From positions 62,001 to 126,000 of the forward strand of contig JACQWY010000018.1 in assembly GCA_016209015.1 (NCBI GenBank): DNA of 64,000 nt. Reading direction: 5' to 3'. A program made the position numbers and the translations under genes. The DNA is from Gammaproteobacteria bacterium (GTDB taxonomy: Bacteria; Pseudomonadota; Gammaproteobacteria; Ga0077536). Position 1 is the first letter of the stretch. Each line of letters starts with the position of its first letter. Under the pieces are notes generated by a model that was not told where the DNA came from, ran no database searches, and saw only the letters and a program-made list of their open reading frames with translations. Shown here piece by piece: positions 7,570 to 46,078 of this stretch.

Positions 7570-7738
7570 GTCGTCCCGGCGGAGGCCGGGACCCAGTCGG
7601 TGACCGTCGGCGAGCGCATCGAACGCCGCGATAGGGCGGTGCCGTGAGCCGGCGCGTGCACGAATTCGAAGTACGGACGCGCGGACGATCGAATGCGCCG
7701 AGGAGTGATGACTGGGTCCCGGCCTGCGCCGGGACGAC
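7570..7738. repeat. REPIN/MITE-like element R1, copy 2 (CCCGGC stem)
   Basis: About 169 bp, with GTCCCGGCGGAGGCCGGGAC at the left and GGTCCCGGCCTGCGCCGGGAC at the right, each end a hairpin and the two in inverted orientation. The flanking CCCAGTC/GACTGGG bases are shared with all copies. It lies upstream of the dehydrogenase operon promoter and downstream of the hydratase fusion gene, in a 439-bp gap that also holds an operator and a 36-bp repeat but no gene. Confidence 0.85.
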
Positions 7739-36711: not shown

Positions 36712-37386
36712 ATGCCGCGCGTCGTGCTCGCCTGGAGCGGCGGCAAGGACAGCCTGATGGCGCTCGGCGCACTGCGCGCCGATCCGGCGTACGACGTCCT
36801 CGGTCTCGTGACGACGGTGAGCGCCGTCCACGATCGCATCTCCATCCACGGCATCCGCCGCAGCATTCTCGCCTTGCAGTGCGCCTCGCTCGGTCTGCCC
36901 TGCGTAGAAGCCGTGCTGCCGGCGGCTCCCTCGAACGCGGATTACGAACGCGTGTGGGCCGAGGCGCTCGCGACGGCGCGCCGGCAATGGGGCGGATTCT
37001 CGGGCGTCGCCTACGGCGATCTCTTCCTCGCCGACATCCGCGCCTATCGCGATCGTCAGCTCGGCGCGCTCGGCCTCGCGACGCACTACCCCTTGTGGCT
37101 ACGGGATACGAAGGCGCTCGCGCGCGGTTTCGTCGCGGCAGGTCACGAGGCTTGCGTCACCTGCGTCGACACGACGCTGCTCGACGGCGCGTTCGCCGGG
37201 CGGCGCTACGACGAGGCGTTCCTCGATGCCCTGCCGGCGTCGGTCGATGCTTGCGGCGAGAACGGGGAGTTCCATACCTGCGTCGTCGGCGGGCCGCTGT
37301 TCGCGCAGGCCATTGCGGTGACGACGGGGGAGAGGGTGTTACGCGAGGGGCGATTTCAATACGTGGATCTGATTGAAGCTCGATAG
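36712..37386 (+). CDS. DUF71/Dph6-like ATP-binding (ATP pyrophosphatase) protein
   Basis: 224 residues. The PP-loop SGGKDS is at 9-14, and GEFHTCVVGGPLF plus the Cys-rich ACVTCVDTTLL match the diphthine-ammonia-ligase-like DUF71 family. In eukaryotes and archaea Dph6 amidates diphthamide, which bacteria lack, so the bacterial role is unknown; adenylation-driven amide or thio chemistry is expected. It is the last gene of the IpdAB-OsmC run and is followed at once by the four-hairpin array at 37423-37558. Confidence 0.82.
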   Translation: MPRVVLAWSGGKDSLMALGALRADPAYDVLGLVTTVSAVHDRISIHGIRRSILALQCASLGLPCVEAVLPAAPSNADYERVWAEALATARRQWGGFSGVAYGDLFLADIRAYRDRQLGALGLATHYPLWLRDTKALARGFVAAGHEACVTCVDTTLLDGAFAGRRYDEAFLDALPASVDACGENGEFHTCVVGGPLFAQAIAVTTGERVLREGRFQYVDLIEAR

Positions 37387-37422
37387 GCTGTACCCACGGC
37401 GAAGGCTCATCGATCGCGTTAG

Positions 37423-37558
37423 GGAAGCTCTGAATAAGTCCATCCTGGACTTTTCAGAGCACGGTCGGCAAGAAGCGTGGTTCTTGCCAACCTTACGTGA
37501 ACAATGGCTTACGCCACTGTTCACGGCGGCACATCCCTGTGCCGCCGGAAGCTCTGAA
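37423..37558 (+). repeat. Four-hairpin array bounded by a 12-bp direct repeat
   Basis: Four consecutive stem-loops: 37427-37460 (15 bp with one bulge, loop TCC), 37467-37488 (8 bp), 37497-37524 (12 bp, one mismatch, loop TTAC) and 37525-37546 (perfect 9 bp, loop TCCC). The array is framed by GGAAGCTCTGAA at 37423-37434 and 37547-37558. TTCAGAGC at 37453-37460 can pair with either copy of GCTCTGAA, giving a four-hairpin string or a cloverleaf with three arms. Noncoding; function unknown. Confidence 0.8.
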
Positions 37559-37584
37559 CGGACGCACGGTGTCACCGTCACCGC

Positions 37585-37736
37585 GTCGTCCCGGCGGAGG
37601 CCGGGACCCAGTCATCGACCCACGGCGTCCACGTCGAGCCTCGCGATTCCAAAGCGTGTCGCGCCGGTGATTGATCCCGAGGTTCCACCTGACTGCCGCG
37701 GCTGAACGACTGGGTCCCGGCCTCCGCCGGGACGAC
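37585..37736. repeat. REPIN/MITE-like element R1, copy 4 (CCCGGC stem)
   Basis: About 152 bp, starting GTCGTCCCGGCGGAGGCCGG and ending with the inverted form. It shares CGCGGCTGAACGACTGGG with copy 3. It lies 27 bp after the four-hairpin array in a 395-bp gap between convergent genes that contains no coding sequence. Confidence 0.85.
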
Positions 37737-37781
37737 GAATGGAGGAACGTATTCGCCCGGTAGCGCGAAACGCTCGAAATC

Positions 37782-38789
37782 TCACCCCGTCAATATCGCC
37801 CGCGACCTCTCGAACATCGGCCCGATCACGTGGCTCATGTGCTCCCACACCTCGTCGATGCGCTGGCCCTTGCGATGCAGCTTGACGTTCAGACAGCCGA
37901 TCGAGCCCAGCCGATAGCCCGCGAACGCCTGGAACCACGGAATGGACGCGAACGTGCGGCCCATGCCGCGCTCGTAGATGTCGCGGATCTCGGCGAGCGG
38001 CAGCGGATGGATCGCATGCCACTGCTCGACCCAGTTCTCGGGATCGGCGCACATCATGAGCCAGCCGACGTCGAGGAGCTGCGCGCCGAGGCCCGAGATC
38101 TCCCAGTCGATCACGCCTGTCAGCCTCCCCTCGTGATAGAGGCAGTTCCCCGGCTGGAAGTCGCCGTGATAGAGCCCTTCCGGCGCGTCCGTCGGAATCT
38201 TCGCGAGCAGCAGGCGCTCGACGTCCTCGGCGAGCGTGATCCACGCGGGCTCCGGCGAATGACGGTAGATCTTCGACCAGCGCTTCACCTGATCCGCGAG
38301 CGGCTCGGGCGTGTCCCAGCCGGCGAGCTGCGTGCGCCAGTCGAACTGGTGGAGGCGCGGCAGGAGTTCCGCGCACTGGCGCCACAGCGGTTCGGCCGCT
38401 TCGCGCGACCGTCCGAACGACTTGTGCGGATCCCAGATGAAGAACACGCGCCCCGGCAGGCGCTCCATCACGATGAACGGCACGCCGAACCAGTGCTCGT
38501 TCTCGCTCGCGAACGGCACGTCCGGCACGGGCAGGCCGGCGGCATGCAGCGCGCGCAGCAGCGGCGCCTGACGATAGACGTCGGTGTTGCCGCGCCGCGC
38601 GACGCCCGGCGGCGGCACCTTCAGCACATATTCGCCGACGATCTCGTGCGTGCCCTTCTTCTGCACGTCGAACAGGAACGTGAGCCCGGCGTGGCCGTCC
38701 GAGTCGTGCACGGAATGCAGCTCGACACCGTGACCGAGATGATCGTCGATGAACGTCTGCAGATTCGCCTTCAGCTCGGACTTGACCAT
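37782..38789 (-). CDS. APH-type phosphotransferase (ACAD10/11 N-domain/LvaA-like)
   Basis: 335 residues with an aminoglycoside-phosphotransferase/choline-kinase fold. The catalytic HGDFQPGN is at 208-215 and the metal-binding IDWE at 227-230. Members of this branch are found fused to or beside acyl-CoA dehydrogenases; in levulinate catabolism (LvaA) and in ACAD10/11 the kinase phosphorylates a 4-hydroxyacyl-CoA before dehydrogenation. No dehydrogenase is adjacent here, but an ACAD11-like one lies at 55702-56994. A PPOX protein gene is 14 bp upstream on the same strand. Antibiotic resistance is unlikely in this context. Confidence 0.85.
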   Translation of the reverse strand: MVKSELKANLQTFIDDHLGHGVELHSVHDSDGHAGLTFLFDVQKKGTHEIVGEYVLKVPPPGVARRGNTDVYRQAPLLRALHAAGLPVPDVPFASENEHWFGVPFIVMERLPGRVFFIWDPHKSFGRSREAAEPLWRQCAELLPRLHQFDWRTQLAGWDTPEPLADQVKRWSKIYRHSPEPAWITLAEDVERLLLAKIPTDAPEGLYHGDFQPGNCLYHEGRLTGVIDWEISGLGAQLLDVGWLMMCADPENWVEQWHAIHPLPLAEIRDIYERGMGRTFASIPWFQAFAGYRLGSIGCLNVKLHRKGQRIDEVWEHMSHVIGPMFERSRAILTG

Positions 38790-38803
38790 GCCTCCCCGCT
38801 CCC

Positions 38804-39340
38804 TCAGTCGACGCTCTTCGCGATGAGATCCGGCGCCGTCCGATCGACTTTCGCGTCCGGCGTCCAGTAACGCTTCGCCCAGATCCCCTTGTACGCCTCC
38901 TCGCCGACCGGCATGCGCCAGGTCTTCAATTCCGCGCCTTCGAGCGTGACGGCACACAGCGCGCGCGGCTGATCGTCCGTGGCGTCGACGTAGCCGTCCG
39001 CGTCGGTCTTTGGAATGTAGCGCCGCGCGATGCGGCGATAACGCTCGCGCCAGAGTTCGTCGTTGCCGACTTCGTGCACGACTTCCGCGGCGCCGCGCAC
39101 GATCACTTTACGATACGGGAATACGCGCTCGTCGATGCAGAGCGCGACGCGCGGATCGCGGCGGATGTTCGCGAGCCACTCGGAATGCTGGCGCGGCGTG
39201 AACCAGATGCGGCCTTCCTCGTAGACGAACCAGATCGGCGCGAGCAGCGGCGCGCCGTCGGCGTCGAGCGTCGCGATGTCCATGAGGAATCCGGGTTCGT
39301 TCAGAAAGACGTCGCGCTCGGCGACGGTGAGTTTCGGCAT
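38804..39340 (-). CDS. Pyridoxamine 5'-phosphate oxidase-family flavin/F420-binding protein
   Basis: 178 residues forming a split beta-barrel. FLMDIATLDADGAPLLAPIW and VIVRGAAEVVHE are typical of PPOX-fold proteins that bind FMN, F420 or heme. True PNPOx residues are not evident. ATG 39340 follows GGAGGGG. Probably in one transcript with the phosphotransferase 14 bp downstream. Substrate unknown; a dehydrogenase or reductase of an acyl-CoA-related compound is possible. Confidence 0.8.
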   Translation of the reverse strand: MPKLTVAERDVFLNEPGFLMDIATLDADGAPLLAPIWFVYEEGRIWFTPRQHSEWLANIRRDPRVALCIDERVFPYRKVIVRGAAEVVHEVGNDELWRERYRRIARRYIPKTDADGYVDATDDQPRALCAVTLEGAELKTWRMPVGEEAYKGIWAKRYWTPDAKVDRTAPDLIAKSVD

Positions 39341-45900: not shown

Positions 45901-46078
45901 GTCGTCCCGGCGAAGGCCGGGACCCAGTCATCTCACTACGGCGCTGAGGCAGAACTGCGAGGTGTTGGGGGGCGCCGGTTACGCTCTGGAAATCCCCGCG
46001 GTTCGCTGCTCGTGCCGAGGGTCGCCGACTGGGTCCCGGTCCCGGCCTTCGCCGGGAGAGGCCCTTCGCCGGGACGAC
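45901..46078. repeat. REPIN/MITE-like element R1, copy 5, right end duplicated
   Basis: About 178 bp, beginning GTCGTCCCGGCGAAGGCCGG. The right end contains two partial hairpins in series (GGTCCCGGTCCCGGCCTTCG, then AGGCCCTTCGCCGGGACGAC), so the terminal stem has been duplicated or slipped. With the hairpin at 45847-45877 it fills most of the 439-bp gap before pap; no gene is seen. Confidence 0.8.

Follow-up and report, generated by a model that had tools for sequence, protein, structure and literature searches.

In this work we have asked what a dense array of hairpins in a gammaproteobacterial genome represents. Is it an RNA that switches between two folds, or a mobile unit, and if it is mobile, does it carry anything besides the ends by which it moves? 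The array occupies positions 37423-37558 of the window, that is, of the whole stretch of 64,000 nucleotides that was analysed. It sits between two convergent genes, one of the diphthamide-synthase family upstream (36712-37386, plus strand) and one of the APH-type phosphotransferase family downstream (37782-38957, minus strand). The four stem-loops and the direct repeats GGAAGCTCTGAA (37423-37434 and 37547-37558) on which the original prediction was built are indeed present, and the fold surpassed all 200 shuffled sequences on both the plus strand (MFE -80.1, z -8.0) and the minus strand (MFE -85.4, z -8.4). From left to right, a copy of a 4-bp YTAR target, TTAG (37419-37422, plus strand), which we recognized from the perfect 4-bp duplications around complete copies, is followed by the left terminal inverted repeat GGAAGCTCTGAA (37423-37434, plus strand), whose last 8 bases double as the 5' arm of hairpin 1. 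The next four features were assigned to the minus strand: hairpin 1 (37427-37460), with the apical loop AGGAT at 37446-37442 within UCCAGGAUGGA, a CsrB-type CAGGAUG motif; hairpin 2 (37463-37492), with a 12-bp stem and the conserved loop YCRYRY; hairpin 3 (37497-37524), with a 12-bp stem of strong covariation and a variable loop; and hairpin 4 (37525-37546), whose hexaloop AGGGAU at 37538-37533 within CACAGGGAUGUG fits ACA-N-GGA-N-GU. The second GGAAGCTCTGAA (37547-37558, plus strand) is the right terminal inverted repeat and the 5' arm of a fifth hairpin. Complete copies continue from there with CTTGTTCAGAGCTTCC-YTAR, but the copy in the window has neither the 3' arm of hairpin 5, TTCAGAGCTTCC, nor a second target copy.

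The array is almost certainly one copy of a 152-bp MITE. A sequence that stood alone and was not conserved in relatives would have spoken against a defined element, and the opposite was found: there are approximately 97 copies in its own genome, and the element occurs in 57 of 275 sampled genomes. When the own genome was searched by BLAST with a 181-bp query, 86 matches were obtained, about 43 of them near full length and 91-100% identical, and a covariance model gave 97 matches. Reading the copies together with their flanks, we saw that in most of them the right-hand GGAAGCTCTGAA is followed by CTTG-TTCAGAGCTTCC, so that the complete element, with its five hairpins, has the form YTAR|GGAAGCTCTGAA...TTCAGAGCTTCC|YTAR. 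Target-site duplication, proposed earlier as a check, was evident as perfect 4-bp YTAR repeats (TTAG, TTAA, CTAA, CTAG) flanking the complete copies, and in the closed genome G155 the two 4-bp sequences were identical at 51 of 57 copies. The element is thus short, multi-copy (152 bp, about 97 matches) and without a transposase gene, as is typical of MITEs, and the complete copies of the own genome also have the inverted ends and the target duplication, which the window copy does not. The direct repeats described earlier are real, but they show only part of an element whose full frame is a pair of inverted repeats and in which the right-hand GGAAGCTCTGAA pairs with its own 3' arm to form hairpin 5. 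With genes called by a home-made program, more copies lie between convergent genes than between divergent ones (28 vs 9). A second type of repeat was also noticed in the window, consisting of paired palindromes GTCCCGGCnnnnGCCGGGAC in inverted arrangement, about 125-145 bp apart (7 matches vs 0.02 expected); pairs lie at 37584-37737, 7573-7735 and 45904-46058, and one pair directly adjoins the MITE.

Which enzyme could move such an element? IS5-type elements sharing ends and target with the MITE were found in four genomes, G008, G057, G155 and G287. The related MAG G008 has two of them. The first, CTAA|GGAAGCTCTGCAAAAG...TTTTCAGACCTTCC|CTAA, has an interrupted transposase reading frame, and its GGAAGCTCTGCAAAAG end shares 16 identical nt with the right end of the MITE in the same genome; the second, TTAG|GGAACGTCTGAACAAG...TATGCAGAAGTTCC|TTAG, has an intact transposase. 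The transposase belongs to NCBIfam IS5 (NF033581), with 337 bits against a cut-off of 140. In G057 the IS5-type elements have ends close to those of the MITE, G287 contains at least 12 IS5-type copies, 1,220-bp elements with the ends GGAAACGCTGATTTATTC (the three that were read are flanked by the duplications CTAG, CTAA and TTAG), and alignment of the five copies in G155 revealed similar but imperfect ends. The end sequences of the IS5-type elements track those of the local MITE, as with GGAAACGCTGATTTATTC in G287; the ends of E. coli IS5A are GGAAGGTGCGAATAAG. We infer that IS5-type elements mobilize the MITE: their transposase would act in trans on the GGAAnCTCTGAA inverted ends of the 152-bp element, insert it into a 4-bp YTAR target and duplicate this target. 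Because the element has many copies, inverted ends and 4-bp target duplications, and because IS5 elements with matching ends occur in related genomes, its mobility is well supported, and the earlier proposal of a non-autonomous mobile unit is borne out. Recognition as single-stranded hairpins, which was part of the same proposal, is not needed for movement, since a DDE (IS5-type) transposase makes both inverted ends and duplications. The own genome yielded no relative of the IS5 transposase; perhaps the copies there are stranded, or perhaps the IS has fallen into assembly gaps. One IS5 copy of G155 (L305, G155:C1, around 728680-729624) is flanked by repeats resembling the type I-E CRISPR repeats CCCCGCGCACGCGGGGATGAACCG, as if it had been inserted into a CRISPR array.

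The window copy is not alone in its damaged right end. About a dozen other copies likewise reach only as far as the hairpin 5 loop and have no second target copy, and in still others hairpin 1 is affected by a small truncation or duplication. We classified the copies by eye, setting aside contig-edge and tandem ones, and in the own genome (G000) right-end defects affected 15 of 23 plus-strand copies and 0 of 14 minus-strand copies (p=7e-5), whereas hairpin-1 defects were seen in 5 of 14 minus-strand and 1 of 23 plus-strand copies. In G008 the corresponding figures were 14/22 vs 0/10 (p=1e-3) for the right end and 5/10 vs 0/22 for hairpin 1. When both genomes are pooled, defects on the contig-right side outnumber those on the left by about 39:1, whichever way the element points. 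The direction of a contig should be biologically arbitrary, so this bias points to an artefact of assembly, and the direct-repeat framing and the lost right end of the window copy are probably such an artefact and not biology. Could the truncated, directly repeated form instead be a real one-armed variant, generated in vivo when a hairpin tip is cleaved or replication slips? In its favour, G000 and G008 contain many copies that break off at a terminal hairpin loop. However, the defects keep to the contig-right side in either orientation of the element, and in the closed genome G155 57 of the 58 examined copies are complete and only one is not. We have rejected a real one-armed element on account of this side bias and its near absence from G155, and regard it as improbable. 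The small deletions and duplications at terminal hairpins, nearly all of them contig-right, should warn readers of repeats in the G000 and G008 assemblies.

The element is distributed well beyond its own genome. By BLAST it was detected in 9 of 58 relatives, and a pattern scan of named genomes gave, among the matches listed, Gammaproteobacteria MAGs including Pseudohongiella, Pseudomonadales and Thiotrichales. The 57 of 275 sampled gammaproteobacterial genomes in which the covariance model located it represent 42 genera, with 131 matches in the closed 3.2-Mb genome G155 and 55 in G287. No match to the own element was obtained in plasmid and phage collections. In G044 and part of G193 (L248, L272-L299) a related four-hairpin cassette, which has kept its GGA loops, is bounded by different ends, GAGGGTGTCGCAAAA, next to which 5 bp of target appear to be duplicated (TCTTA, TCAAG, TCGAA, GACAA, AATCA). 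If the inside were only a passenger, the occurrence of the cassette between transposon ends of two kinds would be difficult to account for. Tandem arrays of the unit occur in G054. An array of six units (L213, G054:C1:13813-14534) lies directly 3' of a tRNA-Ser(tga) gene and upstream of an rnhB-like gene; its CsrA-type loops are on the tRNA strand, and in this arrangement it would be transcribed as a tRNA trailer.

What, then, could the hairpins do? When the minus strand is read, the loop of hairpin 4 is ACA-N-GGA-N-GU and that of hairpin 1 is CA(N)GGAUG. GGA stands in the loop in 61/61 cases for hairpin 1 and 58/61 for hairpin 4, but in only 0-3 of 61 for hairpins 2, 3 and 5, in statistics that come partly from alignments and a model favouring conserved loops. 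The CsrA site obtained by SELEX is RUACARGGAUGU, with ACA and GGA invariant, an ANGGAN hexaloop occurs in RsmE complexes and the repeats of CsrB read CAGGA(U/A/C)G (PMC7652899), while the recognition consensus of CsrA/RsmA is CANGGANG (PMC6849547). The element has GGA in two apical loops that fit ANGGAN/CANGGANG, as expected of a CsrA/RsmA target, for which at least two such loops are looked for. Most of the variation in the loops of hairpins 1 and 4 falls on the N positions of the ANGGAN motif; in further genera the first N is G, C, U or A, and the stems of hairpin 4 covary (GGTGCA/TGCACC, GCAGCGC/GCGCTGC, GCGACAC/GTGTCGC). In the diverged copies of G054, ACA, GGA and GU are conserved at 0.92-1.0, and the N positions go down to 0.77 and 0.68. 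Exceptions are AGAGAC at L049 and AUGGCU in the G033 elements. Each of the nine carrier genomes that were tested has a gene for CsrA, as is expected for the class. In almost every element the minus-strand loop of hairpin 2 (37475-37480 in the window) reads YCRYRY. This loop has no CsrA motif and yet is conserved, which means that loops are kept for at least one other reason. We did not detect any strand bias among copies co-directional with their flanking genes (18 CsrA-sense vs 25 antisense) or among the copies of G155 (12 vs 13), and thus saw no sign of selection for the CsrA-sense orientation.

Judging from the loop conservation and the match to the consensus, RNA of the element would bind CsrA if the minus strand is transcribed, and a CsrA-binding role seems to us quite probable. 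In such a transcript hairpins 4 and 1 would present ANGGAN or (N)GGAU loops about 75 nt apart, a distance that one CsrA dimer could bridge. Depending on the place of the copy, the RNA might titrate CsrA or put CsrA sites into a host transcript. The earlier suggestion of a noncoding RNA is probably right in part, in that the minus-strand loops fit CsrA sites. We would give a probability of roughly 0.7 to the whole reading, an IS5-mobilized MITE carrying CsrA-binding hairpins.

The hairpins themselves are conserved as structures. All 26 non-redundant elements folded without constraint into closely similar five-hairpin arrays, a few with local irregularities. In 71 aligned matches, fitted to a covariance model so that the figures lean towards structure, 94.6% of the cells were paired compared to 75.3% in shuffles, with 642 double-changed cells vs 163, and pairing fell below 50% when the partner was slid by one column. 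RNAalifold on a MAFFT alignment, which was not fitted to the model, gave compensatory changes in 22 of 54 pairs. Template-switch correction can restore palindromes in DNA and keep them perfect, and for this reason compensation alone is no proof of selection on RNA; part of the covariation could come from this correction at the DNA level. Might the element then be a plain IS5-derived MITE, in which the hairpins matter only as DNA, through transposase or host-factor access or as cruciforms, and the GGA loops are passengers? The inverted ends, the YTAR duplications and the IS5 elements nearby all agree with this, as do the intergenic sites, the lack of strand bias and the ability of template-switch correction to maintain perfect palindromes. 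What it leaves unexplained is that two hairpins of unrelated stems have, on the same strand, (C)A(N)GGA(N)G as their common loop, that change falls at the N positions and that the loop-bearing cassette is found between different transposon ends. We consider a plain MITE unlikely, though it is the likeliest of the alternatives to CsrA-binding hairpins on a MITE.

The other alternatives are far less probable. The original prediction saw in the array a cloverleaf alternative, and a regulatory four-hairpin RNA switch with the direct repeats as alternative partners could be built on it. Both folds can form on paper and are only 3.5 kcal/mol apart, but the cloverleaf is the less stable one (-69.0 kcal/mol, compared with -72.5 for the four local hairpins). 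The right repeat of a complete copy is taken up in hairpin 5, where its partner is its own 3' arm, and in such copies too the alternative pairing is less stable (-98.2 vs -102.9). The alternative exists because each end of the element uses the same terminal repeat (arm order A, A', A, A'). We find a switch very hard to credit. Membership of the RsmW or gyrA-motif families of Rfam appears equally remote. Weak matches were obtained to RsmW (RF02809; 35.3 and 36.5 bits) and to the gyrA motif (32.1), but they fall short of the gathering scores (52 and 45, respectively), they shift with the stretch searched and most members of the element family have no such match. The RsmW, RsmV, gyrA-motif and RNAI matches were all rejected as sub-threshold and unstable, and no tRNA or other Rfam family reached the gathering threshold in the window.

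How does the MITE with CsrA-type loops relate to known systems? With IS5-family MITEs it shares the GGAA.. inverted ends, the 4-bp YTAR duplication, the short length, the intergenic location, the high number of copies and the IS5 transposase with nearly identical ends in related genomes. Unlike them, it has an interior of four conserved and covarying hairpins, a cassette in which CsrA-type loops are found, it occurs in many genera and a related cassette is also found with non-IS5 ends. GGA in apical hairpin loops (CAGGAUG, ACAnGGAnGU) is common to the element and to CsrB/CsrC, RsmX/Y/Z/W and similar RNAs that sequester CsrA, and the tandem arrays of G054 multiply the sites in a CsrB-like manner. 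However, in contrast to these RNAs, the element is mobile and high-copy, has two predicted sites per unit and had no promoter or terminator of its own that we could identify. The stems of the element exceed those of most SELEX winners in length. The QMITE1 and QMITE2 elements of Coxiella are gammaproteobacterial MITEs with stable hairpins as well, and a source of small RNAs; QMITE1 is 300-400 bp long with direct repeats of 2-3 nt, QMITE2 150-190 bp with direct repeats of 7-11 nt and a GTAG REP, and no link to CsrA is reported for them (PMC5896051), which sets them apart from our element. REP/BIME sequences are also intergenic palindromes in many copies, but our element has inverted ends and 4-bp duplications, and no GTAG foot was seen in the window copy. 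No earlier description of the element, whether by sequence, as a MITE with CsrA or as a sponge or repeat, was found in open-licence papers. What is apparently new here is the combination of an IS5-type MITE with putative CsrA-binding hairpins, as both kinds are known singly.

CsrA is a global post-transcriptional regulator, and the origin of its target sets and sponge RNAs is an open question. New CsrA sites and sponges would readily arise from a mobile element that has paired CsrA-type loops, gives as many as about 130 matches in a single genome of 3.2 Mb and is present in about one fifth of the sampled gammaproteobacterial genomes. Such an element would also tie the copy number of a transposon to a global regulator. 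Perhaps, and we put this forward only tentatively, a selected, transposon-borne CsrA-binding cassette that can swap its transposon ends has spread in Gammaproteobacteria, its many copies and tandem arrays serving as a dispersed CsrA sponge or as seeds of new CsrA-regulated genes, possibly to the element's own benefit.
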